From a virus: a stretch of 22,530 nt of DNA. This document shows, piece by piece, positions 13,121 to 22,530 of this stretch; positions within the stretch are counted from its first letter, which is position 1, and each line of letters opens with the position of its first letter. The stretch is taken from the IMG/VR virus record IMGVR_UViG_3300035228_000540, positions 1 to 22,530 of that record. One strand, 5' to 3'. The notes below the pieces were generated by a model. It had not been told where the DNA came from. It saw only the letters and a list, made by a program, of their open reading frames with translations, and did no database searches. The position numbers and the translations under genes are program-made.

Positions 13121-13960
13121 ATGCCAATTTTTTCTACATTCTCCTCAGGGGGAAACAAAATGAGAGGTGTGGGTTACGGAAAACCTGGAGTTGCTGCACC
13201 TACTGGACCTCCAGGACCATGGTATATTTTGATGGCAACTAATCAAAGTAAGAGTAGTCAACTTAATAATAACAGTTTTGGATATATTGGAGGTGGTAAT
13301 TTTGCTAATGCTACTATCGATAGTACAGGAGCACGAGATAGAATTACTTTTGGACAAGGAACGGGTGTCTATCACAACTATTTTTCTGTAAGAAATTTTA
13401 ATTACTATGCCCTAGTTAGTGGTAATGGTAATCATACTAATGTTTCAAGTCATAGTTATTATGTTGGATGGCAAGCAACTTCCTATCCTTCAGGATCTCA
13501 GAGCATGTATCAAATCCTGAGACAAATTGATATTGGTAATAGTCAAAGCAATAGAGCAGGACAAAACTATAACCAAGGCAATCCAGGAACTGGTATTGTT
13601 GGTTCTGGTCACCCAACAACGGGAAACCGTTATACAGGTAGTGGTAACTATCGTTGTAATAATGGTTCTGTTGCCAATAAATTTATGGTCTGGGGTATTA
13701 ACCATGCCTCAGATGATGACTCTCAAACATTAGTTGCCTATGATGGTAACCTATCCAATGGTAAGATGGATTCTTGGCGAGGTACTAACCCACCAGAAAC
13801 AATGTGGAGCGTCTGGGGTGCTGACTTCCACTCTAATTCAAATTCCCAAAGAATATCTGCTGCGGGACAAGGTGGTGGAGGTTGGACTAATGGTGCTTCC
13901 AGACCTCAAGAGTTGGTATATTTAATGGGGTACTCAGATAACCCTCAGTTTATCCCTTGA
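13121..13960 (+). CDS. Gly/Asn/Ser-rich putative adhesin or fibre tip
   Basis: The 279-residue protein is rich in Gly, Asn, Ser and aromatic residues. It has a short collagen-like TGPPGP at 28-33 followed by WYILMATNQSK, then Gly-rich loops (YIGGGNFANA, GQNYNQGNPGTG, GQGGGGWTNGAS). It has no membrane segment or enzyme motif. It follows the stem-only fibre protein by 18 bases with a CGGAG ribosome site, and it closes the late block before a strong terminator. The arrangement of stem gene then Gly-rich gene recalls separate tip adhesins such as gp38 of T2-type phages. That comparison is inference, because I see no direct sequence match. Confidence 0.65.
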   Translation: MPIFSTFSSGGNKMRGVGYGKPGVAAPTGPPGPWYILMATNQSKSSQLNNNSFGYIGGGNFANATIDSTGARDRITFGQGTGVYHNYFSVRNFNYYALVSGNGNHTNVSSHSYYVGWQATSYPSGSQSMYQILRQIDIGNSQSNRAGQNYNQGNPGTGIVGSGHPTTGNRYTGSGNYRCNNGSVANKFMVWGINHASDDDSQTLVAYDGNLSNGKMDSWRGTNPPETMWSVWGADFHSNSNSQRISAAGQGGGGWTNGASRPQELVYLMGYSDNPQFIP

Positions 13961-13985
13961 TGTGCCAGTTTAAGTAAGTGTCACA
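13961..13985. promoter_or_regulatory. Palindromic element, cassette A
   Basis: The left half is TGTGCCAGTT, the spacer TAAGT and the right half AAGTGTCACA. Each half matches the window consensus (TGTGACAGTT / AACTGTCACA) at 9 of 10. It begins immediately after the stop of the adhesin gene. The first base is exactly 53 bp before the -10 box at 14014. It is probably a protein-binding operator; the regulator is unknown. Confidence 0.6.
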
Positions 13986-14009
13986 GGGGGTGTTGCACCC
14001 CCTTTTTTT
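13986..14009 (+). terminator. Intrinsic terminator after the structural block
   Basis: A 7-bp GC-rich stem (GGGGGTG 13986-13992, CACCCCC 13996-14002) with a 3-base loop is followed by seven T residues. It ends the late structural transcript and stands directly upstream of the first early-region promoter. Confidence 0.9.
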
Positions 14010-14010
14010 A

Positions 14011-14019
14011 TGCTATAAT
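14011..14019 (+). promoter_or_regulatory. Extended -10 promoter, cassette A
   Basis: TGCTATAAT is an exact extended -10 (TGnTATAAT). No good -35 is visible at 17 bp. A short leader with CCAAAGGAC (ribosome site) leads to the ATG at 14043. It would drive the five-gene unit 14043-15195. Confidence 0.75.
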
Positions 14020-14042
14020 ATGAAGGTATCCAAAGGACAATC

Positions 14043-14249
14043 ATGCCTCAATTCACTCTCATCTGTACCGATGAGGACCAAACTGTAACAACTAAAGAAT
14101 TTGAAGCAACGATGTTGAATGATGTTGTTGATAAAACAGAAGACTTTTTGAAAGGTGTTGGGTATTGTTTTGAAGAACTTCGCACTCAAGTATACCGTCT
14201 TCCAGAAAATGATGAACTTACCTCACTTTACCGAGATGTTGACAACTAA
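14043..14249 (+). CDS. Small acidic unknown early protein
   Basis: The 68-residue soluble acidic protein begins MPQFTLICTDEDQTVTTKEF, a likely beta hairpin, followed by a helix (LNDVVDKTEDFLKGVGYCFEEL). It looks like a family of small conserved cyanophage proteins, but I know no function. It is the first gene after the cassette A promoter, with AAAGGA 4-9 bases before the ATG, so expression early in infection is likely. Confidence 0.8.
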   Translation: MPQFTLICTDEDQTVTTKEFEATMLNDVVDKTEDFLKGVGYCFEELRTQVYRLPENDELTSLYRDVDN

Positions 14250-14297
14250 ATCTTAATACATATATTAGTAGTTTATTAGCATTCCTACATTAAGACA

Positions 14298-14489
14298 ATG
14301 GGCAAGACTTTTCGGCGTGGTGGTAGCGAACGAGGTTACTATTCTCCTGGCAAATCTATCCGTGATAAGCGAGCAAAAGGAGGAACTAATCGATCATGGG
14401 GCGATGATAGCAACTATGATGATGACTTTCAAAAAGGTAACAAAAAGAGAAAATTCAAACAAAGTGATGATGATAGTGGATGGTATTAA
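14298..14489 (+). CDS. Small charged, disordered protein
   Basis: The 63-residue protein is Gly/Arg/Lys-rich at the N-terminus (MGKTFRRGGSERGYYSPGKS) and Asp/Lys-rich at the C-terminus (NYDDDFQKGNKKRKFKQSDDD). It is predicted to be unstructured and could bind nucleic acid. Another frame (14317-14520) is also open, but its hydrophobic Met/Ile run looks like a shadow. It is probably in the transcription unit begun at 14043. Function unknown. Confidence 0.65.
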   Translation: MGKTFRRGGSERGYYSPGKSIRDKRAKGGTNRSWGDDSNYDDDFQKGNKKRKFKQSDDDSGWY

Positions 14490-14513
14490 AGATTCAGTTT
14501 ATTACACCCTTCA

Positions 14514-14714
14514 ATGCTAAATCAAATGACCTTTGACAAAGAATCTCAAGATGTAAAATTCAATCGTGGTCTAGATCTTTTTCTAGAATCTGTATTGAAA
14601 CCCGACCCTAAGTTGAGACAATGTGCTCACAATCAAGAATGTTTTCATGAACTGATGTATATTCGTTCATATGTTCTTGATTATCTGAAAACCATACGAA
14701 GAGATGAACTGTGA
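14514..14714 (+). CDS. Small helical unknown protein
   Basis: The 66-residue, predicted all-helical protein contains two Cys and a His (QCAHNQECFHEL) that could bind a metal but form no recognised finger. A second in-frame ATG occurs at residue 5. Its stop overlaps the GTG of the next gene by 4 bases, showing translational coupling. Function unknown. Confidence 0.7.
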   Translation: MLNQMTFDKESQDVKFNRGLDLFLESVLKPDPKLRQCAHNQECFHELMYIRSYVLDYLKTIRRDEL

Positions 14715-14905
14715 TTGGTCTTCATTCCGCAATCCTTGATAAGAATGAAAAGATCATTGTTAAGAACGCATTAATTTTGTATGTTTCAGACTTGCAAAAA
14801 AGATTTTATCGTGATAAACTAATTCCTGAAGACATCTATCTTGACAAAATGAAAGAACTTCAAGACATCGTAGACAAATTACACCTAGCAGAATTATACA
14901 AATGA
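14711..14905 (+). CDS. Small helical unknown protein, GTG start
   Basis: The 64-residue charged helical protein (DLQKRFYRDKLIPEDIYLDKMKELQDIVDKLHLAELYK) has a likely coiled-coil-like C-terminal half. It starts with GTG in a GTGA overlap with the upstream stop and ends in an ATGA overlap with the next gene. No family is recognised. Confidence 0.7.
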   Translation: MIGLHSAILDKNEKIIVKNALILYVSDLQKRFYRDKLIPEDIYLDKMKELQDIVDKLHLAELYK

Positions 14906-15195
14906 CCGTGAAATTTATTCGTTTTATTAGTGGCGAAAATGTTGTTGCTGATTTAACTGAAGAGACTGCTGCTAGTATCACCATTAGTGATGCTATTGTT
15001 GCTGTCCCTGCCAATCAAGAAGGCACACAACTTGGATTTGTTCCATTTGCACCACTACAAGATCCAAATGAAAAGGATGTTACTATTGCCAAATCATTTG
15101 TGATGTTTATTACAAAACTTTCTCCTGAATTGGAGGAACAATATAATAATATGTTCAATCGAATTGTAACTCCCACTAAAAAACTCATCATGTGA
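14902..15195 (+). CDS. Small conserved cyanophage protein, beta-rich
   Basis: The 97-residue protein begins MTVKFIRFISGENVVADLTE, followed by ITISDAIVAVP and LGFVPFAPLQDPNEKDVTI. The pattern 'I-R-x-x-S/T-G-E-x-V-x-x-D', then a 'P' strand and a 'GFxPFxP' segment, then a helix (SPELEEQYNNMFNRIVTP), recurs in small T4-like cyanophage proteins of unknown function and suggests a small beta-barrel. It ends the cassette A unit. Its last two codons, ATG TGA, lie across the start of the next palindromic element. Confidence 0.75.
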   Translation: MTVKFIRFISGENVVADLTEETAASITISDAIVAVPANQEGTQLGFVPFAPLQDPNEKDVTIAKSFVMFITKLSPELEEQYNNMFNRIVTPTKKLIM

Positions 15196-15214
15196 CGGTT
15201 GACAAACCTACACA
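15191..15214. promoter_or_regulatory. Palindromic element, cassette B
   Basis: Left half TGTGACGGTT (9/10), spacer GACA, right half AACCTACACA (7/10). It contains the stop codon of the upstream gene (15193-15195). The first base is exactly 53 bp before the -10 box at 15244. Confidence 0.55.
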
Positions 15215-15221
15215 AGACCCC

Positions 15222-15249
15222 TTCACACCACTCCCCTTTACGCTATACT
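15222..15249 (+). promoter_or_regulatory. Sigma70-type promoter, cassette B
   Basis: A -35-like TTCACA (5/6, 15222-15227), a 16-bp spacer and a -10 TATACT (15244-15249). The ATG at 15254 is only 4 bases past the -10, so the first gene would be nearly leaderless unless it starts further downstream. Confidence 0.6.
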
Positions 15250-15253
15250 AATT

Positions 15254-15430
15254 ATGTTGGAGAAAGAAATCCGCCTATTGAACAAAGTCATCAAGAAAGG
15301 CGAAAATGGAGAAGTCAGGTATTCTGACGAAGAACTGCACAGACTCAAGGCAAAACGTCGCCAGTTGAAAGACTGGAAACAATCATCAATCACCTCACAA
15401 AACAATGGATTCGGTCAGTATGTACGATGA
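15254..15430 (+). CDS. Small basic helical protein
   Basis: The 58-residue protein (MLEKEIRLLNKVIKKG, then SDEELHRLKAKRRQLKDWK, ending NGFGQYVR) is a basic helical hairpin of a type common among cyanophage small proteins; function unknown. The start is uncertain. The ATG is placed where transcription should begin if TATACT is the -10. A downstream TTG at 15278 with GGAG at 15259-15262 is a weaker alternative. It overlaps the next gene by 26 bases. Confidence 0.65.
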   Translation: MLEKEIRLLNKVIKKGENGEVRYSDEELHRLKAKRRQLKDWKQSSITSQNNGFGQYVR

Positions 15431-15551
15431 AGATTTCAAGGTTTCTTGGGACGAGAATGATCAGGTTCAAGTTCAAGAAGATGAATGGATTTCTTCAGTG
15501 ATTGGCACTGAACAAGATGCAATCTATGATGTTCTTGCAGAGATTGAATGA
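15405..15551 (+). CDS. Very small acidic protein (48 aa)
   Basis: The acidic 48-residue product (DEDFKVSWDENDQVQVQED, then SSVIGTEQDAIYDVLAEIE) looks like a beta hairpin followed by a helix. A second in-frame ATG at 15420 would reduce the overlap with the upstream gene to 11 bases and is a fair alternative start. Its stop overlaps the next ATG by 4 bases. Not recognised. Confidence 0.6.
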   Translation: MDSVSMYDEDFKVSWDENDQVQVQEDEWISSVIGTEQDAIYDVLAEIE

Positions 15552-15709
15552 ACAGCAACAATCGTTACAAAGTTTGTTGGACTAGACCCAAATCAAAAAA
15601 TGGATTCTATTCACAACAACAAGTAATCGTCTTCGGTCTTGATTCTGTGCAACATGTTATTGAAAATGTGGTGCCAGAGGGTCAAGGTTGGGACGTAATC
15701 CCAATGTAA
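15548..15709 (+). CDS. Very small unknown protein (53 aa)
   Basis: The product (NNRYKVCWTRPKSKNGFYS, then VIVFGLDSVQHVIENVVPEGQGWDVIPM) has an alternating strand/helix pattern and ends in a Gly/Trp motif. It is coupled by an ATGA overlap to the upstream gene. It ends just before the G-free leader of the ParB-like gene. Function unknown. Confidence 0.65.
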   Translation: MNSNNRYKVCWTRPKSKNGFYSQQQVIVFGLDSVQHVIENVVPEGQGWDVIPM

Positions 15710-15751
15710 ATCTAATCAATCTAACCAATCCAATCCAATCAATCTAATCAA
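15710..15751 (+). repeat. G-free AATC/CTAAC low-complexity leader
   Basis: The 42 bases between the 53-residue gene and the ParB-like gene contain no G and are built from repeated AATC, CAATC and CTAAT units. There is no Shine-Dalgarno sequence, and the RNA cannot form GC pairs. It is probably an unstructured translation-initiation leader; similar G-free leaders occur at 21365-21384 and 22385-22423. Confidence 0.6.
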
Positions 15752-16948
15752 ATGACAACTCCTAACATGATCCAAGACTACAGCACTCTCGATGAGATCT
15801 TCGGTGTGCAAGATGAGCAGCACGTTATCAATGAGAACCTGCTATTCAATAGCGATATGTTGAATCGTTGTCGTGAGGATTGTAAGCAAGATATTAGTAA
15901 AATTATTGTAAAATATAAGGGAGCAATGATTGACAATCAACTACAGTTGGTTGACATTCGCACTGTGCATCCTGCTGGTAAAGAAATCACCAACAATAAG
16001 ACTGGTGAAGTATTACCTAAGGGGTTTCAAGTTCGTGCAGATCATAACATTGATATTGGACACAAAGATGCAATTCTCAATGACATTTTCAACACTGATT
16101 GGAATACTGCTGCTAACACGATAGTTCTGTTTCGTCTGCCTAAAGAGTATCAATATGTAAACAATCAAGGTATTAAAGTTATTTGGGGCATTCTTGATGG
16201 AACTCATCGATATCGTGCTGCTGCTGATGCCAATCAAGAAAATATCATCAGTTGGTTGGTAGATATGAATATTGATGACATCTATAAATTTGCTTGTGCT
16301 GAATTAAATCGTAGTAAGTATAGTGCAAAATCGCGAACTGATCGTGATACTGCTGCGGCAATTCTTCGTTCATATAAGAATCCAAACTCTGAGTTATTCG
16401 CGAAGATTAACAATGTAGAAGAGTGTGAGGTCAATAGTATCTTGATTGAAGAGATTAAGTCTTATAATTATGATCGGAGAAGTGTTAATGCTGTTCTTCG
16501 TATCATTCAACATGATCCTGATGTTACTGTTGATCGTAAGCAATATTCTTCTGCCGAGATGAAGAACTATATTTCAGAACATAAGATTGACTGGATTGAA
16601 GATTCTGGTGATAATCTAGATTATCTTACTAAAAAAGGTGTGCGAGTTATTCTCACTCAAGCAATTGCACGAAACGCTGTTATTGTTGCCCATGACATTT
16701 GTCTCTTGACGCAAAGAAGTAATGCCCCCATTGTCGTTGCATTTGCAACAGATATTAACTCAAAACTGACTCCAGAAAATGCACAAGCACGACGTGAACA
16801 ATTCAGAGAAAAGGTTTACGCAGTGATCAAAGATATGGGTCGAGGTTATAAAGCAATGTTTGAAGATTGTGATGCTGTAAATCCTAGTTGGTTGTGCTTC
16901 CCTGAACTCGCTGATGAGTTTGCCGATGGTATGATCAACCTCATGTGA
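15752..16948 (+). CDS. ParB-like domain protein
   Basis: The 398-residue protein contains ILDGTHRYRAAADA at 147-160, resembling the ParB/Srx-superfamily box (D/E-G-x-H/R-R-x-x-A-A) that binds a nucleotide or Mg in ParB-type proteins. The preceding FRLPKEYQ and IKVIWG strands fit the same fold. The C-terminal 200 residues are helical and could bind DNA (KSRTDRDTAAAILRSY, RRSVNAVLRIIQHDP), but I recognise no HTH signature. Phage ParB-like proteins can be nucleases, CTP switches or modification-system parts; which applies is unknown. It is the last gene of the cassette B unit, and its Met-stop lies in palindrome C. The nuclease/methylase unit follows. Confidence 0.55.
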   Translation: MTTPNMIQDYSTLDEIFGVQDEQHVINENLLFNSDMLNRCREDCKQDISKIIVKYKGAMIDNQLQLVDIRTVHPAGKEITNNKTGEVLPKGFQVRADHNIDIGHKDAILNDIFNTDWNTAANTIVLFRLPKEYQYVNNQGIKVIWGILDGTHRYRAAADANQENIISWLVDMNIDDIYKFACAELNRSKYSAKSRTDRDTAAAILRSYKNPNSELFAKINNVEECEVNSILIEEIKSYNYDRRSVNAVLRIIQHDPDVTVDRKQYSSAEMKNYISEHKIDWIEDSGDNLDYLTKKGVRVILTQAIARNAVIVAHDICLLTQRSNAPIVVAFATDINSKLTPENAQARREQFREKVYAVIKDMGRGYKAMFEDCDAVNPSWLCFPELADEFADGMINLM

Positions 16949-16967
16949 CAGTCAACGAACTGGAGCA
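16944..16967. promoter_or_regulatory. Palindromic element, cassette C
   Basis: Left half TGTGACAGTC (9/10), spacer AACG, right half AACTGGAGCA (7/10). It includes the stop of the ParB-like gene (16946-16948). It begins exactly 53 bp before a -10 box TATTAT at 16997. The right half runs into the terminator stem. Confidence 0.5.
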
Positions 16968-16992
16968 GCGCCCTTGACAGGGGCGCTTTTTT
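16967..16992 (+). terminator. Intrinsic terminator with -35 box in its loop
   Basis: A 7-bp stem (AGCGCCC 16967-16973, GGGCGCT 16981-16987) encloses loop TTGACAG and is followed by five more T residues (six with the last stem base). It ends the cassette B transcript. The loop is at the same time the -35 hexamer of the next promoter. Confidence 0.85.
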
Positions 16993-17005
16993 CATGTATT
17001 ATAAT
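16974..17005 (+). promoter_or_regulatory. Sigma70 promoter for the nuclease/methylase unit
   Basis: A perfect -35 TTGACA (16974-16979) is followed at 17 bp by TATTAT (16997-17002) or at 20 bp by TATAAT (17000-17005). A leader with ATCAAAGGAA leads to the ATG at 17031. Confidence 0.8.
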
Positions 17006-17030
17006 AGTATCAAAGGAACCCACCCCACCC

Positions 17031-17567
17031 ATGTTTGACTCTATCTTTGCTGATGGTTCTCTCCGTGATTACATTGATAGCAACCTCCAAGATCCTTGGA
17101 AGGGCACAAACTTTGAGGGTTATGTATTTCTTTCACCTAAGCAAAAGGGTGAGTTAGGTGAACGATTTGTGTCTCAGTTGATGAATAATCTTGGACACAA
17201 CGTTGAACGTGCTGTAACATCTACAGCGGGACATGATCGCGTTATTAGTAAAATACTGACAGAGATTAAGTTTGCTCTTGCTACTCGTAACAAGAAAGGT
17301 GGCGTGACTGTTGATAAGTTCATCATCAATCATGTCTCTGTAGGTAAAGATTGGGAGCGTCTTATCTTCTGTGGTATCAACCCTGATGAGAAAGATGCTC
17401 GCATTGTGTTCATCACCAAAGCAGACTTTGAAGCACACTTGAAGAGTGATAAGTGCTATTTCAATGTGCAGCAAGGTGGTAAGAAAGTTGGCAACGATGA
17501 CTACATTTGCACAAATGTTGCTGCTCTGCTAGAATGTGACTTCGTGAAGAATATTGCTGAATGGTGA
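17031..17567 (+). CDS. Putative PD-(D/E)XK restriction-type endonuclease
   Basis: The 178-residue protein shows a likely PD-(D/E)XK nuclease core. SPKQKGELGERFVSQLMNNLG (35-55) supplies the N-terminal helix with E41/E44, HDR (68-70) supplies the motif Asp D69, and LTEIKFALATR (76-86) supplies the E78-I-K80 catalytic pair. The strand FIINHVSVGKDWERLIFCGINP and RIVFITKADF complete the fold, and the layout resembles type II restriction enzymes. The open frame extends upstream to 16974, but that part overlaps promoter and terminator, so I chose the ATG at 17031 after AAAGGA. The 3' end overlaps the methyltransferase gene by 7 bases, which supports a paired restriction and modification role. The target sequence is unknown. 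Confidence 0.65.
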   Translation: MFDSIFADGSLRDYIDSNLQDPWKGTNFEGYVFLSPKQKGELGERFVSQLMNNLGHNVERAVTSTAGHDRVISKILTEIKFALATRNKKGGVTVDKFIINHVSVGKDWERLIFCGINPDEKDARIVFITKADFEAHLKSDKCYFNVQQGGKKVGNDDYICTNVAALLECDFVKNIAEW

Positions 17568-18298
17568 ATTTATTACTGGGTGATTGTTTAGATCTTCTGC
17601 CTACGATTGCAGATGATAGCATCGACATGCTGCTGGTAGATTTGCCCTACGGTACAACTGCCTGCAAGTGGGATAGTATTATCCCTCTAGACAAGTTGTG
17701 GGAGCAGTACAACAGAATCTGTAAAGAAAATGCGGCAATGGTATTCACTGCTGCACAACCTTTCACTGCAATTCTTGCTGCTTCAAATATCAAGAACCTA
17801 AAGTATGAATGGATATGGGAGAAACCGCAGGGAACTAACCCCATGAATGCCAAAGTTATGCCTCTTAAGAGTCATGAAAACATCCTGGTATTTTATAGAA
17901 AGAAACCAACATATAACCCTCAAATGTGGTATTCAACTCCGTATAGTGGGTTTAAGTCTGATACAGCAAAGATTGGCGAAGTTTATGGAGAAGCACAATC
18001 TAAGCATCGGGACAACCCCGAGGGGTCTCGCTACCCTAAGACCGTCTTAAAATACAAGCAAGAGAAGGGTTTACATCCAACGCAGAAACCTGTGCCACTA
18101 ATGGAGTATTTGATCAAAACATATACTCATAAAGGTGACACAGTGCTGGATAATACCATGGGTAGTGGTACAACAGGCGTTGCATGTGTCAATACAGATA
18201 GAAACTTCGTTGGAATCGAGATGGATGAGAAATATTTTAATGAAGCACAAACCCGTATCGGATCGCTGAGAAATCCTCTCACTGACCTGTTCATGTGA
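17561..18298 (+). CDS. DNA methyltransferase, N6-adenine/N4-cytosine type (beta class)
   Basis: The 245-residue enzyme has the motif order of beta-class amino-methyltransferases (PF01555 type). The catalytic motif IV DLPYGTT is at 27-33 near the N-terminus, YEWIWEKP at 82-89, and HPTQKPVPLMEYLI at 172-185. The AdoMet-binding motif I DNTMGSGTTGVA lies at 197-208, then GIEMDEKYF. DLPY replaces the more common DPPY but occurs in known relatives. It would methylate an exocyclic amino group of A or C in a specific site. It overlaps the nuclease gene by 7 bases, so it may protect phage DNA from that enzyme, or act alone against host restriction. Its C-terminal Met-stop lies in palindrome D. Confidence 0.92.
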   Translation: MVNLLLGDCLDLLPTIADDSIDMLLVDLPYGTTACKWDSIIPLDKLWEQYNRICKENAAMVFTAAQPFTAILAASNIKNLKYEWIWEKPQGTNPMNAKVMPLKSHENILVFYRKKPTYNPQMWYSTPYSGFKSDTAKIGEVYGEAQSKHRDNPEGSRYPKTVLKYKQEKGLHPTQKPVPLMEYLIKTYTHKGDTVLDNTMGSGTTGVACVNTDRNFVGIEMDEKYFNEAQTRIGSLRNPLTDLFM

Positions 18299-18318
18299 CA
18301 GTTGGTCAAACTGTCCAC
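18294..18318. promoter_or_regulatory. Palindromic element, cassette D
   Basis: Left half TGTGACAGTT is the full consensus; spacer GGTCA; right half AACTGTCCAC. The inner 7 bp (GACAGTT/AACTGTC) are perfectly inverted. It contains the methyltransferase stop (18296-18298) and starts exactly 53 bp before the -10 at 18347. There is no T tract, so it is not a terminator. Confidence 0.65.
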
Positions 18319-18326
18319 TAAACCCC

Positions 18327-18365
18327 CACAGGGCACCAAAATCATGTATATTAAGAGAGTCAAAG
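18327..18365 (+). promoter_or_regulatory. 39-bp repeated promoter, copy 1
   Basis: An identical 39-bp segment occurs here, at 19323-19361 and at 20989-21027. It begins CACAGGGCACC, carries TATATT (18347-18352) as -10 and ends AGAGAGTCAAAG, which supplies the ribosome site. No -35-like hexamer stands 17 bp upstream, which suggests activator-dependent or -35-independent recognition. It would drive 18377-19294. Confidence 0.7.
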
Positions 18366-18376
18366 GGATTCAACCG

Positions 18377-18550
18377 ATGCGAACCACCACCAAAGCACAA
18401 GCACTGGATCAGTTCCGTTACAACTGGAAGGCAAGTGGATCAACAGATAAGGTCGCAAAACGTGAGGCATGGGGCATCTTTACTGATGAACTTTGCCGTG
18501 AGGGTTACATCACCATGAAAAAGTACGAGTCATGGAGCAACCCTTTTTGA
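18377..18550 (+). CDS. Small unknown early protein, paralogue of the 22217 gene
   Basis: The 57-residue protein ends KREAWGIFTDELCREGYITMKKYESWSNPF-like: a helix, then GYIT, then a terminal W-S-N-P-F. The last 36 residues align with the product at 22217 (about 13 identities, including K, E, D, L, R, G, IT, E, W, N, F). The frame is open from 18302, but that part covers the palindrome and promoter, so the ATG at 18377 is preferred. The stop overlaps the next ATG by one base. Function unknown. Confidence 0.75.
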   Translation: MRTTTKAQALDQFRYNWKASGSTDKVAKREAWGIFTDELCREGYITMKKYESWSNPF

Positions 18551-18765
18551 TGAAGATTGACACAGTTGGTAGAGTCATAGGATCATTTCTTGTGGTCACT
18601 GCATATTTCATCATCCTACATGTTAACATATCATTAGGGGTGATTATGCAGTTTGTTGGTGATGCTATCTCCGTGCCATTCTTCATCCGAACTAAATCGT
18701 GGGATGTTGTAATCATGCTCGCATTTCTGTTAATCATCTCATCTACTAAATTGCTACCAAACTAA
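18550..18765 (+). CDS. Small integral membrane protein
   Basis: The 71-residue hydrophobic protein has two or three predicted transmembrane helices: about residues 7-26 (GRVIGSFLVVTAYFIIL), a weaker one at 28-46, and 52-68 (VVIMLAFLLIISS). A polar turn with FFIRTKSWD lies between the last two. There is no signal peptidase site or known transporter motif. It could act in the host inner or thylakoid membrane. I took the ATG at 18550, sharing one base with the upstream stop, over the ATG at 18532 inside the upstream gene. Confidence 0.72.
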   Translation: MKIDTVGRVIGSFLVVTAYFIILHVNISLGVIMQFVGDAISVPFFIRTKSWDVVIMLAFLLIISSTKLLPN

Positions 18766-18983
18766 TGTCTTGGGGTCTCCTTCCATGGTCAGAACTTAAA
18801 CACAAAAAAATGACTTATCTTCAACTTCTTGAGCAACTTCAGTGCTGCTCAAAAGAAACTCTGCAACAAACTGTGACGCTGTATAGCATCAGAGATGATG
18901 AGTTTACTCCTGCTTACATGACAGATTACACTGACAGTGAGGAACAAGTTCTCAATCGTGATCATCTTGTTATTACATATTGA
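18765..18983 (+). CDS. Small acidic unknown protein
   Basis: The protein has 72 residues from the ATG at 18765, which shares a base with the upstream stop. The conserved-looking part begins at M16 (18810): MTYLQLLEQLQCCSKETLQQ, then VTLYSIRDDEFTPA, then EEQVLNRDHLVITY. This pattern, a helix followed by strands and a final 'LxxDHLVI', occurs in small phage and bacterial proteins of unknown function. The true start may be 18810. It overlaps the next start by one base. Confidence 0.7.
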   Translation: MSWGLLPWSELKHKKMTYLQLLEQLQCCSKETLQQTVTLYSIRDDEFTPAYMTDYTDSEEQVLNRDHLVITY

Positions 18984-19294
18984 TGACAGAACTTCCTCCC
19001 GATTTTATTCATGAAGCACCAAAAGGATTTCGATACAGAACCGCTCACTTTAGGGCAAATACTATTAGTATCTGGTGTGACAATCTTAACAGTTACAGTT
19101 ACAATAATGGCGCTAGAGTTAGCACAATTTGGGGATTTTGCAAAAGAACGACAACAAAGAAGAGAGGCACTGAGAGCACTTACTATGCCCCCATCAACTC
19201 AACTAAGATAGGTGCAGTTGTTGACATTAACTCCACACGTCCGTTAACAGCGATGCAGATAAAACGGACAGGGTTAGAGTTACTTTGGATGTGA
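18983..19294 (+). CDS. Conserved small cyanophage protein (IWGF/YYAPINS type)
   Basis: The 103-residue protein shows FRYRTAHFRANTISIW, then STIWGF, then YYAPINSTKIGAVVDI and STRPLTAMQI. This is a pattern I recognise from small cyanobacterial and cyanophage proteins: a strand ending in IW, an 'IWGFY' strand and 'YxxPINSxxxGxxVxxxxTxPYTAM'. Function unknown. A polar insert (CKRTTTKKRGTES) interrupts the usual IWGFY-YYAPIN spacing. The ATG at 18983 shares a base with the upstream stop. It ends in Met-stop inside palindrome E. A second frame inside it (19011-19211) is open and hydrophobic; see findings. Confidence 0.75.
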   Translation: MTELPPDFIHEAPKGFRYRTAHFRANTISIWCDNLNSYSYNNGARVSTIWGFCKRTTTKKRGTESTYYAPINSTKIGAVVDINSTRPLTAMQIKRTGLELLWM

Positions 19295-19313
19295 CACCCC
19301 TTGTAGTGGCACA
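19290..19313. promoter_or_regulatory. Palindromic element, cassette E
   Basis: Left half TGTGACACCC (7/10), spacer CTTG, right half TAGTGGCACA (7/10). The outer bases TGTGACAC and GTGGCACA are inverted at 7 of 8 positions. It holds the stop of the preceding gene (19292-19294) and starts exactly 53 bp before the -10 at 19343. Confidence 0.55.
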
Positions 19314-19322
19314 CAGACGCCC

Positions 19323-19361
19323 CACAGGGCACCAAAATCATGTATATTAAGAGAGTCAAAG
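19323..19361 (+). promoter_or_regulatory. 39-bp repeated promoter, copy 2
   Basis: Identical over 39 bp to copies at 18327 and 20989; identity with copy 1 extends to 43 bp (19320-19362). The -10 is TATATT (19343-19348) and GTCAAAGGAA precedes the helicase ATG. It gives the helicase its own promoter. Confidence 0.7.
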
Positions 19362-19373
19362 GAACGCCATTCA

Positions 19374-20612
19374 ATGCAACTTCGTCCCCACCAGCAACGC
19401 GCCTTCGATGCCATGCAAGAGCACGACTGTGGGCAGGTGATCATCCCCACTGGCGGTGGTAAAACATACATCATGATCGCAGATGCTCTGCATCGTGCTG
19501 CACAAGGTCAAACGATTGTTGTTGTTGCTCCACGCATCTTGCTCGCTAATCAACTCTGTGAGGAGTTTATGGAGCATATCAGTGGTACTTGGACGCATGT
19601 CTGTCATGCACATAGCGGAGAGACTCACTACTTCAGCAGCACAAAACCTGAGAAGATTGCACTCTTCAATGATACTGCGCGTGCTGCTAGTGAGTCCTGC
19701 ATTATATTCACCACCTATCATTCTCTGCACCGCGTTGTAGATAGTGGCATCAATATTGACACTATCTATTTTGACGAAGCACACAATGGTTGCGGTCGTC
19801 ACTTCCACAAGGCAGTATTTGCCACGGCACAGTATGCCAAGCGTCGTTACTATTTCACTGCTACCCCTAAGAATGGTCGTGGTGTGAGTCTTTCGCGTGG
19901 CATGAATAACACCTCTGTTTATGGTCGCACTCTGTGCAATGTTCCTGCTGCTGAGTTGATCGCTGCTGGTGCAATCGTCCCTCCTAAAATTGTTGCTTTT
20001 GAGACAAGTCGCAGTCGTAACAAGTACAACGCGCACGAGGTTGATGGTGACAACCTGAAGGATATGTTTGAGCAACTTGATGTATTCCAGAATCCTAAAG
20101 TCTTGGTGGCAGCACCATCCAGTAAAGTTCTGGGTAACATGCTCGGACAGACTGATATCCTTGAGTATTTCTATCGCAAGGGATATGACGTGATGCACAT
20201 CACCTCTAAGTTTGGTGCTATCATCAACGACAAGAAAGTAGGACGCGAAGAGTTCTTCCAGACGCTGCAATCGTGGGGTGCTGATGACTCTAAGAAGTTT
20301 GTGATCTTTCACTATTCTATTCTGTCTGAGGGTATCAATGTGCCAGGTCTGACACATACAATCTTGCTGCGTAATCTGCCCATCGTAGAGATGGCACAGA
20401 CAATCGGTCGTGTTATCCGTGTTCATCAAGATGACCGCCGTGATGTTGCTGAGGGTCGCATTCCTGCTGGAGCGTTTCACCTCTACAAGAAATCTGAGGG
20501 TATTGTTACCATGCCAACAGGTTACAAGATGGGCAACGCTATCGCCCAAAGATTGCAAAACGTTGTTAACGCCATCTTCATTGAAGGTATTCCTCCCGTC
20601 GCATTCTGCTAA
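19374..20612 (+). CDS. SF2 DEAH-box DNA/RNA helicase
   Basis: The 412-residue ATP-dependent helicase carries the superfamily 2 motifs in order. LRPHQQRAFDAM (3-14) is Q-motif-like, PTGGGKT (25-31) is Walker A, VVVAPRILLANQ (49-60) is motif Ia, DEAH (134-137) is motif II, TAT (162-164) is motif III, SEGINVPGLTHTILL (318-332) is motif V and QTIGRVIRVH (342-351) is motif VI. It resembles bacterial and phage type-III-res/UvsW-like helicases. T4 UvsW is longer (about 500 residues), and this protein lacks an extra N-terminal domain before the RPHQ motif, so I leave it unnamed. It may remodel replication forks or R-loops. It follows its own promoter and shares one base with the next gene. Confidence 0.92.
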   Translation: MQLRPHQQRAFDAMQEHDCGQVIIPTGGGKTYIMIADALHRAAQGQTIVVVAPRILLANQLCEEFMEHISGTWTHVCHAHSGETHYFSSTKPEKIALFNDTARAASESCIIFTTYHSLHRVVDSGINIDTIYFDEAHNGCGRHFHKAVFATAQYAKRRYYFTATPKNGRGVSLSRGMNNTSVYGRTLCNVPAAELIAAGAIVPPKIVAFETSRSRNKYNAHEVDGDNLKDMFEQLDVFQNPKVLVAAPSSKVLGNMLGQTDILEYFYRKGYDVMHITSKFGAIINDKKVGREEFFQTLQSWGADDSKKFVIFHYSILSEGINVPGLTHTILLRNLPIVEMAQTIGRVIRVHQDDRRDVAEGRIPAGAFHLYKKSEGIVTMPTGYKMGNAIAQRLQNVVNAIFIEGIPPVAFC

Positions 20613-20803
20613 TGACACCAACAACAACTGACTCCACTTGGTTTACACATACATCCGACAAATTGTATGATCGACATTATTACACCATCAACAAAAAACG
20701 ATTTGATGACTATGAACAACTCAGGCAGTATTGGTGGCAACAAACTATCACTAATCAAACGGTGATTGTCCATGACTATAAAAAGAAGAAAGGGTTTAGT
20801 TAG
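20612..20803 (+). CDS. Small basic/aromatic unknown protein
   Basis: The 63-residue protein (TWFTHTSDKLYDRHYYTINK, FDDYEQLRQYWWQQ, VIVHDYKKKKGFS) suggests a strand, a helix with conserved-looking aromatic residues, a strand and a basic tail. The ATG shares a base with the helicase stop, so it is co-translated with it and may act with it. No family is recognised. Confidence 0.65.
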   Translation: MTPTTTDSTWFTHTSDKLYDRHYYTINKKRFDDYEQLRQYWWQQTITNQTVIVHDYKKKKGFS

Positions 20804-20815
20804 TATCAATCAGTC

Positions 20816-20880
20816 TTTTTTCCATATCGGGAGCGGGAGGCATGACCAAACACACCTGACAGACAAAAATATGGAAAAAA
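20816..20880. repeat. 12-bp perfect inverted repeat in a noncoding stretch
   Basis: TTTTTTCCATAT (20816-20827) is exactly inverted as ATATGGAAAAAA (20869-20880) around a 41-base loop. It lies in the longest gene-free stretch of the early region (20804-21038). A second pair, TGGTGGT (20897-20903) and ACCACCA (20943-20949), follows. No T tract follows the stem, so a terminator is unlikely. It could be a protein-binding site or a structured RNA. Confidence 0.6.
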
Positions 20881-20956
20881 CAGGTCTTTGCTCTAGTGGT
20901 GGTCAGGGTTCTCAAGGCAGGATAGCGACAGGATGACAGCATACCACCAACCAGAC

Positions 20957-20980
20957 CAAACCAGTTGGCAAGGTGTCCAC
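20957..20980. promoter_or_regulatory. Degenerate palindromic element, cassette F
   Basis: CAGTTGG and TGTCCACTA match the same parts of element D, but the outer TGTGA is lost (left half CAAACCAGTT, 5/10). It lies 52 bp (start to start) from the -10 at 21009, one base less than in the other cassettes. No gene stop overlaps it. Confidence 0.35.
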
Positions 20981-20988
20981 TATTCTCG

Positions 20989-21027
20989 CACAGGGCACCA
21001 AAATCATGTATATTAAGAGAGTCAAAG
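20989..21027 (+). promoter_or_regulatory. 39-bp repeated promoter, copy 3
   Basis: Identical over 39 bp to copies at 18327 and 19323. The -10 is TATATT (21009-21014). The following AAAGAAACG is a weaker ribosome site than in the other copies. It would drive 21039-21633. Confidence 0.68.
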
Positions 21028-21038
21028 AAACGAACCCA

Positions 21039-21191
21039 ATGCGCTACACAACTCCATCAGGTCGCGAGTATTACTTCCCTGAGTCAATCTCTCGCTCTGA
21101 AGCACTAGAACGCATGGCACAGTATGCAAAGAAATATGAGAATGATGAGCGTTCTGGACAACAACTATTCGACGACATGTTCGGAGGTTGA
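21039..21191 (+). CDS. Small unknown early protein (50 aa)
   Basis: The product begins MRYTTPSGREYYFPESISRS, a beta hairpin, followed by a charged helix (EALERMAQYAKKYENDERSG) and ends FDDMFGG. The open frame reaches back to 20973 but covers the promoter repeat, so the ATG at 21039 is chosen. It is the first gene of the cassette F unit. Function unknown. Confidence 0.72.
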   Translation: MRYTTPSGREYYFPESISRSEALERMAQYAKKYENDERSGQQLFDDMFGG

Positions 21192-21196
21192 TTAAC

Positions 21197-21364
21197 ATGA
21201 ACGCACAACTTGACATGTTAATGAGCAGAGAACAATTGATGGAAGACGTTGAGAACATTGTTGATGGATTTTTCAATGATTATCTTGAACAATATCAGGG
21301 AGAACGTGATGATTTAACTCGCATCCTATGTGATGCTGTCTGCAAGAACTTCCCCACTAACTAA
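21197..21364 (+). CDS. Small acidic helical protein (55 aa)
   Basis: The acidic product (MNAQLDMLMSREQLMEDVEN, then GFFNDYLEQYQGERDDLTRI, ending KNFPTN) is predicted to be all helical. It begins 5 bases after the previous stop (GGAGGTTGATTAAC upstream includes GGAGG at 21182-21186, 10 bases before the ATG). Not recognised. Confidence 0.68.
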   Translation: MNAQLDMLMSREQLMEDVENIVDGFFNDYLEQYQGERDDLTRILCDAVCKNFPTN

Positions 21365-21384
21365 CACACACTCCACTAACTAAC

Positions 21385-21633
21385 ATGTTTGACACCACTT
21401 TGGATCTTTTCACATTCAACGAGACTAACAGCGAGACCGATGATCATGATGACATGATTGATACTATGGCAGAGACTTATTTCAAAGCAATGACAACATT
21501 GGCAGCAGATAACCGCAACTTTGATGCAATTGCTTGCTATGAAGAGTGGGTAGTTGATGGTAAAGACCCTCAAGATGGTGATGTAGAGATATTCTTCGCA
21601 CCTGATCTTACACGCGAGAGAGAAGAGAATTAA
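21385..21633 (+). CDS. Small acidic unknown protein
   Basis: The 82-residue strongly acidic protein begins MFDTTLDLFTFNETNSETDD, then has a helix (MIDTMAETYFKAMTTLAAD) and CYEEWVVDGKDPQDGDVEIFF. It could mimic DNA or bind a basic partner, but nothing proves this. It is preceded by a 20-base G-free leader (21365-21384, CTAACTAAC type) without a Shine-Dalgarno sequence. It is the last gene of the cassette F unit. Confidence 0.7.
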   Translation: MFDTTLDLFTFNETNSETDDHDDMIDTMAETYFKAMTTLAADNRNFDAIACYEEWVVDGKDPQDGDVEIFFAPDLTREREEN

Positions 21634-21641
21634 ACCCCGCG

Positions 21642-21705
21642 TGTGCCAGTTCCCAAAGAGCACACTATCACTTGCATTCCGCGCCCTAGGGTGCCATACT
21701 ATAAG
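21642..21705 (+). promoter_or_regulatory. Palindrome half-site and promoter, cassette G
   Basis: TGTGCCAGTT (21642-21651, 9/10) is followed by a poor right half ending GCACA (21664). The -10 is TACTAT (21697-21702) or TATAAG (21700-21705); TTGCAT (21672-21677) is a weak -35 at 19 bp. AGAGTCAAAGGAA then matches the leader of the 39-bp repeats. The start-to-start distance is 55 bp, slightly longer than elsewhere. Confidence 0.5.
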
Positions 21706-21724
21706 AGTCAAAGGAAAACACCAC

Positions 21725-21997
21725 ATGCAAATCTCAAACTCCATCTGCGTCGTTGATTTCTTCCCTGAGGCATTTATTGCTGAGTCATGTGAAATCAAAG
21801 GCATGAAAGTTACAGTTCGTCGTTTCAACAAACGTGTGACATTCCTTGATAACGGTGCTAAGTCTTACAGCACTGTCACAGCACTCACAGCACGTAATGA
21901 GTGGGCAGAGCGTATCGCTGGCGGTGCAACAGTTACTGACTACAACACCGACAAAATGCCTCGCTCTGAGTATGCTCCCATGGCATGTGTGGGGTGA
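21725..21997 (+). CDS. Small unknown early protein (90 aa)
   Basis: The product (MQISNSICVVDFFPEAFIAE, EIKGMKVTVRRFNKRVTFLD, then ARNEWAERIAGGATVTDY) looks like a small beta domain followed by a helix. The frame is open from 21641 but that part covers the promoter, so I use the ATG at 21725 after AAAGGA. A hairpin formed by GTGTGGGG and CCCCTCAC spans its stop codon. No family is recognised. Confidence 0.72.
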   Translation: MQISNSICVVDFFPEAFIAESCEIKGMKVTVRRFNKRVTFLDNGAKSYSTVTALTARNEWAERIAGGATVTDYNTDKMPRSEYAPMACVG

Positions 21998-22032
21998 TTC
22001 CCCTCACTCACTGTAAATCCTTATCTAACATC

Positions 22033-22212
22033 ATGCCAACTGACTTCCCCATCTACAAGAAACAACTCCCACAAGTATGGTTAGAGGATGGTAACTTTGT
22101 CATCGAATCAGACTCGTTTCGTTATGTAATTAAGGATGACTTGAAACTGCTGTTTAAACTATGCAGACGTTTCAAAACTGATGCAATCGCACAAACCTAC
22201 GTCACTAACTAA
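22033..22212 (+). CDS. Small unknown protein (59 aa)
   Basis: The product (MPTDFPIYKKQLPQVWLEDG, then FVIESDSFRYVIKDDLKLLF, then a basic helix) has a strand-helix pattern. I use the ATG at 22033, after CTAACATC, rather than the ATG at 21985, which lies inside the upstream gene. The same CTAACATC precedes the next gene's ATG. Function unknown. Confidence 0.66.
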   Translation: MPTDFPIYKKQLPQVWLEDGNFVIESDSFRYVIKDDLKLLFKLCRRFKTDAIAQTYVTN

Positions 22213-22216
22213 CATC

Positions 22217-22384
22217 ATGCTCAAAGGTCAACTTCTCAAAGTCGTCGGTGAAACTTCAAAGGGCATTGATGCTAACCTGTCACGAGTTGAAAAGTTTGAA
22301 GTATTCTGTCAAGTGTGTGATGGATTACTCAGAGATGGCAGGATTACTGCAATTCAACATGAAAGATGGACCAACGTATTCTAA
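22217..22384 (+). CDS. Small unknown protein, paralogue of the 18377 gene
   Basis: The 55-residue protein (MLKGQLLKVVGETSKGIDAN, then RVEKFEVFCQVCDGLLRDG, then ITAIQHERWTNVF) aligns in its last 36 residues with the 18377 product: GLLRDGRIT with LCREGYIT, and a terminal W-T-N-V-F with W-S-N-P-F. The ATG at 22217 sits 4 bases after the preceding stop. The two copies are in different cassette units, so the gene was probably duplicated or acquired twice. Confidence 0.7.
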   Translation: MLKGQLLKVVGETSKGIDANLSRVEKFEVFCQVCDGLLRDGRITAIQHERWTNVF

Positions 22385-22423
22385 CCCCTAACTAACACTC
22401 ACTCACCCTTACTTACTCTTCTC
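22385..22423 (+). repeat. G-free CTAACT/ACTCAC leader
   Basis: These 39 bases without any G lie between the 55-residue gene and the last, partial gene. They contain repeated CTAAC and ACTCAC/TTACTTACTC units, with no Shine-Dalgarno sequence. They resemble the leaders at 15710 and 21365. Confidence 0.55.
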
Positions 22424-22530
22424 ATGAATTACACTCTCAAGCAACTTCAAGACCGAGTATCATCTATGATCAAAGAACAGGGGGAGGATGCAGAGTGTGC
22501 CGCGTGGATTTATACCAAGAATGATTGTCA
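22424..22530 (+). CDS. Unknown small protein, N-terminal part
   Basis: The gene runs off the window end after 35 codons. The visible part (MNYTLKQLQDRVSSMIKEQG, then EDAECAAWIYTKNDC) has an N-terminal helix followed by CAAWIYTKND, a segment typical of small cyanophage and picocyanobacterial proteins of unknown function. It is preceded by a G-free leader. Confidence 0.65.
   Translation, partial: MNYTLKQLQDRVSSMIKEQGEDAECAAWIYTKNDC

Follow-up and report, generated by a model that had tools for sequence, protein, structure and literature searches.

What switches on the small genes packed around the helicase gene of T4-like cyanophages? The question is raised by IMG/VR virus record IMGVR_UViG_3300035228_000540, positions 1 to 22,530 of which (the window, analysed over its whole length of 22,530 bases) are a fragment of a T4-like cyanophage. 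Its relatives are Syn33, which is classified in Kyanoviridae, S-RIM12 and ACG-2014a/b, with about 88-90% identity to these across about half of 13900-22530. An initial annotation made from the letters of the window had proposed seven cassettes there, each with an imperfect palindrome held about 53 bp upstream of a -10 box, under a single regulator. We find that the palindrome is an operator of fixed geometry, which follows the direction of the genes in Syn9 and Syn33, is widespread among related phages, is absent from the host genomes searched, and has arms that do not covary as those of an RNA stem would. With moderate confidence, we read it as the probable site of a dimeric activator that, bound upstream of weak host sigma-70 promoters, would switch on the units of an early-type block.

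The operator in the window and in other cyanophages

A two-block matrix with positions for both arms, the loop, the spacer and the -10 was built by iterative training on the window plus 15 phages. Syn9 and Syn33 were used as whole genomes, while ACG-2014a, S-RIM12, S-CAM8, ACG-2014g, S-MbCM6, S-SM1, S-RIM2, S-RIM8, S-ShM2, S-PM2, Syn1, S-CAM1 and S-SKS1 contributed their early-type regions only. Matches were accepted at 14 bits or more, and the controls were reversed sequence, complemented sequence and the opposite strand. Exactly seven strong matches, scoring 20 to 35 bits and designated A to G, occur in the window, none of them before 13961, and the two best places after them reach only 10.6 and 9.9 bits; the seven palindromes are real and lie where they had been reported. 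The window and the 15 phages together hold 153 sites on the gene strand, compared to 1 in reversed sequence, 0 in complemented sequence and 43 on the opposite strand, the last being expected because the element is a palindrome.

Because the loci used for training are also the loci counted among the 153 sites, held-out phages were scanned separately. Sites numbered 19 in P-SSM2, 17 in P-HM2, 14 in P-TIM40, 23 in S-CRM01, 21 in S-SSM7, 4 in S-SM2 and 0 in Syn5, against 2, 3, 1, 0, 2, 1 and 0, respectively, in the two-scan controls. When the -10 is ignored, a scan for the palindrome alone gives 168 matches, and reversed sequence gives 14. Among these 168 palindromes, 11% have a strict TATAAT-like box 28 bp beyond the right arm and 15% have one at 29 bp. 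Removal of 90-mers at least 75% identical reduces the set from 168 to 118 non-redundant palindromes, in which the two figures are 14% and 21%. The background averages 0.8% over distances of 5-74 bp, and the antisense side reaches at most 2.4% (3.4% in the 118).

A profile model based on sequence only, R1, was built from 70 of 77 sites selected at 52-54 bp, the seven lowest-scoring having been dropped, and was searched against 22 phage records, 15 of which had given training sites. At an expectation (E) value of 0.01 or below, it finds 7 to 23 matches in each of 20 records. S-SM2 (NC_015279), with one match, is the sole T4-like cyanophage among 21 such records nearly without the operator. The T7-like cyanophage Syn5 has no site by the matrix and no R1 match at E<=0.01, and the Pelagibacter (SAR11) phage HTVC008M, assigned to Kyanoviridae in its record, has no R1 match at E<=1. 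Phages isolated on Synechococcus, on Prochlorococcus and on a freshwater host all carry the element. By matrix, by R1 and in the held-out scans, then, the pairing of palindrome and -10 is enriched in the matching block of other cyanophages, and the annotation's proposal of one regulator site common to the units of the block is borne out. When inverted repeats of any kind were sought de novo close to -10-like strings, 53 bp was prominent in S-SSM7 (22 occurrences; mean 9.6) and ranked first, alone or tied, in S-CRM01 and P-TIM40; it is not prominent in the other nine genomes, since -10-like strings are too common.

The core of the element consists of a left arm G[AC]CA[GC]T[TC] and a right arm AA[CG]TG[GT]C around a loop of four or five bases, with weaker outer bases. 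A -10 could be placed for 148 of the 153 sites, with ties resolved towards 53, and the distance to it from the left arm is 52 bp in 20 sites, 53 in 74, 54 in 35, 55 in 13 and another value in 6, which puts 129 of the 148 at 52-54 bp. Measured from the end of the right arm, the distance is 29 bp in 65 of 110 sites with a loop of four and in 23 of 38 with a loop of five. The near half-site is thus the anchored one, and the far half-site shifts by the extra loop base. The annotation had taken the left half-site to be phased with the promoter; that part of it has to be given up in favor of the promoter-proximal half-site, at 29 bp to the -10.

Downstream of the palindrome lies what looks like a sigma-70 promoter. 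Of 142 sites, 64 have a TTG exactly 23 nt before the -10, which leaves a spacer of 17 bp; once near-copies are removed, the count is 32 of 99. No other distance tested has a TTG in more than 10 sites. The TGn of an extended -10 precedes the box in 47% of 90 sites, and the mean -35 match in these cassettes is 3.73 of 6 (n=90), compared to 2.52 at random places in Syn9. With the -10 starting at the textbook position of -12, the palindrome would extend from about -65 to about -41, right up to the -35, so the activator-like position proposed for it stands. Of the 153 sites, 22 have an intrinsic terminator between palindrome and -10, two of them (A and C) among the seven in the window; random stretches have one in 3 of 3000 cases. 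Two apparent signals were discarded: an anticorrelation of palindrome and -10 scores (rho -0.25), which is a product of thresholding on their sum, and the stop triplets near the left arm of 108 of the 153 sites, the motif itself containing TGA.

The block of small genes around the helicase, probably an early region, as the initial annotation had proposed, holds 10 of the 16 sites in Syn33 (35.9-45.7 kb) and 7 of the 11 in Syn9 (44.8-53.0 kb), and similar clusters occur in P-SSM2, P-TIM40, S-SSM7 and S-SKS1. Further sites are found in both Syn9 and Syn33 upstream of the gene for the gp32 single-strand-binding protein, and in Syn33 also upstream of a peptidase gene and cobS. With the strands merged, 11 of 11 sites in Syn9 and 16 of 16 in Syn33 are on the plus strand, that of the genes that follow them; some sites in P-HM2, P-SSM2, S-CRM01 and S-SKS1 are on the other strand. 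At 35.7-39.8 kb in P-HM2, five minus-strand cassettes (36.9-39.3 kb) stand between plus-strand ones, which suggests an inverted piece within the block. Four annotated gene starts in Syn33 (38206, 42698, 43109 and 45707) fall upstream of or on a predicted promoter and have probably been placed too early.

A DNA site and its candidate binder

The palindrome might be thought to act as RNA, being a terminator, processing site or PeSL (promoter plus stem-loop) stem-loop of the upstream transcript, and its place at the upstream stop codon (just after it in A, overlapping it in B-E) and the real intrinsic terminators of A and C would suit such a role. The arms do not behave accordingly. In the 118 non-redundant sites they form a mean of 6.03 pairs, compared to 6.21 (standard deviation 0.10) when the right arms are re-dealt among sites. 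In an alignment of 70 sites 62.6% of cells are paired versus 63.1% after shuffling, the covariation score is 0.110 in both cases, and no consensus fold is predicted; sliding the partner columns leaves 33-41% paired, as a palindromic consensus would give. The palindrome itself is not followed by a T run, and the terminators are separate hairpins in the spacer, found in 22 of the 153 sites. Compensatory changes between the arms were not found, and we rejected the hairpin or terminator reading, which we regard as scarcely credible. Conservation applies to the letters of each half-site separately, as would suit a protein dimer, and the lack of covariation between the arms points to an operator in DNA. 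It is also very improbable that copying alone has preserved the palindrome, with the cassettes being mobile recombination modules of the PeSL type. Such copying would explain the 24 identical nucleotides that D, E and F carry before unrelated genes, and the joint presence of promoter and terminator in 22 of 153 sites, but the 118 palindromes left after removal of near-copies keep the -10 peak at 28-29 bp (14% and 21%), and spacers vary while half-sites and distance stay constant.

The cyanobacterial hosts appear to lack the site. The strict core with a loop of five has no match in the 7.9 Mb of WH7803, RCC307 and WH5701 combined (one in the control), nor has the core with a loop of four, whereas 15 phage records of about 0.2 Mb each give 27 matches with a loop of five, spread over 10 records with no more than 6 in any one (control 1), and 10 matches with a loop of four, spread over 6 records (control 0). 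R1 finds nothing in the same three hosts, a single partial match (E 0.03) in 31 genomes of the genus of WH7803, Synechococcus, and no match at E<=0.01 in 151 genomes of its family, which we take to include Synechococcus, Prochlorococcus and Cyanobium. In the family search the filters were stricter, and 35 candidates per genome were scored among the matches listed; the positive control for R1 was the phage records rather than any member of the same group, so this empty result is weak alone. The loop-4 core matches in one of the 31 genus genomes, and its backwards control in six. The absence of R1 and of the core from the host genomes searched makes a host regulon on this site unlikely.

A host DNA-binding protein, an activator present at time zero and exploited by the phage, is accordingly disfavored among the phage or host regulators that the annotation had allowed, and we rate it a rather improbable user of the site. 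Early genes do need the host polymerase and factors already in the cell, and there is precedent in the binding of host PhoB to promoters of S-PM2, reported in PMC10976474. Against it stand not only the empty family search, the lone partial genus match and the loop-4 core count of 1 in 31 against 6 in 31 for its control, but also that one element serves phages from Synechococcus, Prochlorococcus and a freshwater host.

A switch present in nearly all the related cyanophages examined and not in their hosts probably recruits a regulator of the first genes of the virus. We infer that a protein binds the operator, that it activates, and that the units are early. Activation is suggested by a site just upstream of the -35, by the rigid distance of the near half-site, by mediocre -35 sequences, and by a weak inverse relation between palindrome strength and -35 match (rho -0.21, p 0.045, n=90). 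Each cassette would then be a host sigma-70 promoter, with a -10 that is often extended and a -35 that is present or degenerate, and with the operator, at about -65 to -41, adjoining the -35 on its upstream side. There a dimeric protein would bind, and its promoter-proximal subunit, 29 bp from the -10, may touch RNA polymerase at sigma region 4 or the alpha C-terminal domain, a contact that could compensate for the weak -35. One factor might in this way turn on the units of the early-type block in T4-like cyanophages.

Such a binder is most likely phage-encoded; if it acts first, it would have to arrive in the virion or be expressed from an early promoter that works in its absence. The T4 factors alt, modA, modB, motA and asiA are described as lacking in cyanomyoviruses in PMC2984593, which leaves room for another early factor. 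A phage-encoded factor also has precedent in the MarR-type factor of a T7-like cyanophage that, according to PMC9692554, interacts with the alpha subunit of host polymerase. More tentatively, T4-like cyanophages may share an early activation system of their own, independent of the host: a virion-delivered or immediate-early dimeric activator of an unrecognised family might recruit unmodified host polymerase and so do what Alt-modified polymerase does for T4, a possibility that we think somewhat doubtful.

The same operator could instead belong to a phage repressor that shuts off early genes on passage to the middle phase, perhaps an AbrB/MazE-like protein encoded near the end of the block. One operator on every unit would fit such a repressor, and these phages are without alt and modA, according to PMC2984593. 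An AbrB-like family (Syn33_085; weak Pfam match to MazE at E 2.5e-4, below the curated cut-off) occurs in 16 of 21 T4-like cyanophage data sets and is missing in S-SM2, which is nearly without the palindrome. Yet the family was not found in P-HM2, S-CRM01 and S-SSM7, all of which bear the palindrome, nor in the 22 kb of S-CAM1 searched. The rigid distance and weak -35s fit activation better, and a repressor rarely blocks polymerase from a site upstream of the -35, at -65 to -41. On balance we consider repression unlikely.

Several points nevertheless count against an activator. Repression would leave an identical sequence signature. The inverse relation with the -35 is weak, its p value lying just under 0.05 without correction, and of the 11 Syn9 sites the one at 142607 falls within the DNA polymerase gene and is probably spurious. 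A further pointer to activation is likewise weak and suggestive only: the block of S-SM2, within limits chosen by the analyst, has the densest exact TTGACA promoters of 11 phages, with 6, or 4.4 per 10 kb, against 0-3.1 in the other ten, as if plain strong promoters had replaced the element. A phylogenetic profile with 218 Syn9 open reading frames (ORFs) of at least 45 aa as queries, in which smaller or fast-changing proteins would be missed, yields no family present in all ten motif-bearing whole genomes and missing from S-SM2. Nor does the AbrB-like protein qualify as the binder, for it is absent from the same three motif-bearing whole genomes.

The negative profile implies that S-SM2 lost the element without losing a recognisable shared protein. 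The binder could be a core protein whose site has changed in S-SM2, a fast-evolving small protein, or a host protein. NrdB, the sole outcome of the profile, proved to be present in S-SM2 after all. Three other candidates were set aside. The "transcriptional regulator" beside phoH (PHROG 385), without a Pfam match at E<=0.1, is encoded by every one of the eleven T4-like whole genomes, that of S-SM2 included; Pfam identifies the "DNA binding protein" Syn33_146 as a pyrimidine-dimer glycosylase; and a 54-aa protein that looks helix-turn-helix-like by eye (Syn9 57929-58093), also unmatched in Pfam, is encoded by 8 of 12 whole genomes, one of them that of S-SM2. In most of the 16 data sets with the small AbrB/MazE-like protein (47599-47769 in Syn33, 53843-54016 in Syn9), its gene lies towards the end of the early-type block.

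The seven cassettes and their neighbors

All seven cassettes are on the plus strand. The first base of the palindrome is 53 bp from the -10 by matrix placement in A, B, C, D, E and G, and 52 bp in F. The distances first given for A-F are thereby upheld, and the 55 bp given for G becomes 53 when CATACT is read as its -10. The palindrome of cassette A, TGTGCCAGTT-taagt-AAGTGTCACA with a loop of five (13961..13985, 34.9 bits), comes directly after the stop codon of the ORF at 13121-13960. An intrinsic terminator with an 8-bp stem and a T run (13985..14009) separates it from the -10, TATAAT (14014..14019), which is preceded by the extended -10 TGC; the -35 spacer of A is 15 bp. Cassette B has the palindrome TGTGACGGTT-gaca-AACCTACACA (15191..15214, 20.6 bits), which overlaps the stop codon of the upstream ORF, a -35-like TTCACA with a 16-bp spacer (15222..15227), and the -10 TATACT (15244..15249). 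The ATG of the ORF after it comes only 10 nt after the start of the -10 (15244-15260), implying either a leaderless start or a later true start. In cassette C the palindrome TGTGACAGTC-aacg-AACTGGAGCA (16944..16967, 26.6 bits) again overlaps the upstream stop codon. Its spacer contains an intrinsic terminator with a 9-bp stem and a T run (16967..16992), inside whose hairpin lies the -35, TTGACA (16974..16979), 17 bp from the -10, TATTAT (16997..17002); an alternative scoring rule prefers TATAAT at 17000, or 56 bp.

Cassettes D, E and F share 24 identical nucleotides, GCACCAAAATCATGTATATTAAGA, and their common spacing is therefore partly copied, while A, B, C and G differ. The annotation's claim, drawn from A, B, C and D, that the spacing was not simply copied holds for A, B, C and G and only in part for D, E and F. 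The palindromes are TGTGACAGTT-ggtca-AACTGTCCAC in D, with a loop of five (18294..18318, 31.7 bits), TGTGACACCC-cttg-TAGTGGCACA in E (19290..19313, 25.4 bits), and CAAACCAGTT-ggca-AGGTGTCCAC in F (20957..20980, 20.0 bits), the left arm of the last being weak outside the core. Those of D and E overlap the stop codon upstream, and the helicase gene lies downstream of E. The -10 is TATATT in each (18347..18352, 19343..19348 and 21009..21014), with no TTG at the -35 position. Cassette G consists of the palindrome TGTGCCAGTT-ccca-AAGAGCACAC (21642..21665, 25.7 bits), the -35 TTGCAT (21672..21677) with a 17-bp spacer, and the -10 CATACT (21695..21700). Promoters without a -35 had been reported for several cassettes; this is right for D, E and F, while C and G have the sigma-70 arrangement of a -10 and a -35 about 17 bp apart, and B has its TTCACA at 16 bp.

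The ORF at 15752-16948 encodes a 398-aa protein with a DGTHR-like motif (ParB/DGQHR-type by eye) and no PHROG match; relatives were found in only three phage records (P-SSM7 twice and one single-cell virus contig). The ORF at 17031-18298 encodes a protein of PHROG 6927, PD-(D/E)XK nuclease-like by eye, and overlaps a DNA methyltransferase gene (PHROG 67), with which it may form a restriction-modification pair. Just before the helicase, Syn33 and ACG-2014a carry a DNA adenine methylase whose neighbor is annotated as "endonuclease" or "restriction endonuclease". Elsewhere in the window, 1456-1961 contains three tRNA genes recognized by Rfam.

Comparison with known systems

The cassettes resemble the PeSL elements of T4-type phages (Arbiol 2010, Comeau 2014): both would be compact early promoter units set among small genes, and in both some units have a terminator and some are copies. 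They differ from the present cassettes, only 22 of 153 of which have a terminator and in which the constant part is a phased operator palindrome. S-PM2 has a far lower density of PeSL-type elements than other T4-like phages, according to PMC4503421. How T4-like cyanophages start and order transcription is called unclear in a 2010 review (PMC2984593). An operator of fixed geometry opens that question to experiment: regulated units can be predicted from it in cyanophage genomes and metagenomes, it serves as a probe for the binder, and S-SM2 provides a natural exception for comparison. It would amount to a regulatory code common to a whole lineage of abundant marine viruses.

Like the cassettes, class I and II promoters of CRP, FNR and NtcA combine a sigma-70 promoter with an upstream inverted repeat whose outer bases are TGTGA-like. 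Here 14-15 bp rather than 6 separate TGTGA from TCACA, and the center is near -53. The gap between the half-sites of the matrix, 14-15 bp, led us to reject a CRP or NtcA site (TGTGA-N6-TCACA or GTA-N8-TAC). The MotA/AsiA middle promoters of T4 would share a phage activator, host sigma-70 polymerase and a weak -35, but here the palindrome is upstream of the -35 and the -35 position is kept. A MotA-dependent middle promoter, with a box near -30 replacing the -35, was rejected since TTG is enriched at -35 and since motA and asiA are absent from cyanomyoviruses according to PMC2984593; a MotA box is mentioned in PMC5780444.

A description of the palindrome was not found in the literature searched, a search outside which lay most subscription papers, Doron 2016 and both PeSL papers. 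Doron and colleagues are said to have described in 2016 a novel regulatory element that controls the early genes of Syn9, host-like promoters driving the middle genes, with P-TIM40 alike. Their elements are reportedly abundant and conserved among T4-like cyanophages, and the early element is reportedly not of a host kind. The palindrome is probably that early-gene element. Syn9 and P-TIM40 both carry the palindrome here, with 11 and 14 sites, and it shows both of these traits, being conserved among T4-like cyanophages (20 of 22 records) and not host-like (0 of 151 genomes). The novelty of the cassettes is thus probably limited, and we file them as members of the Doron-type element.

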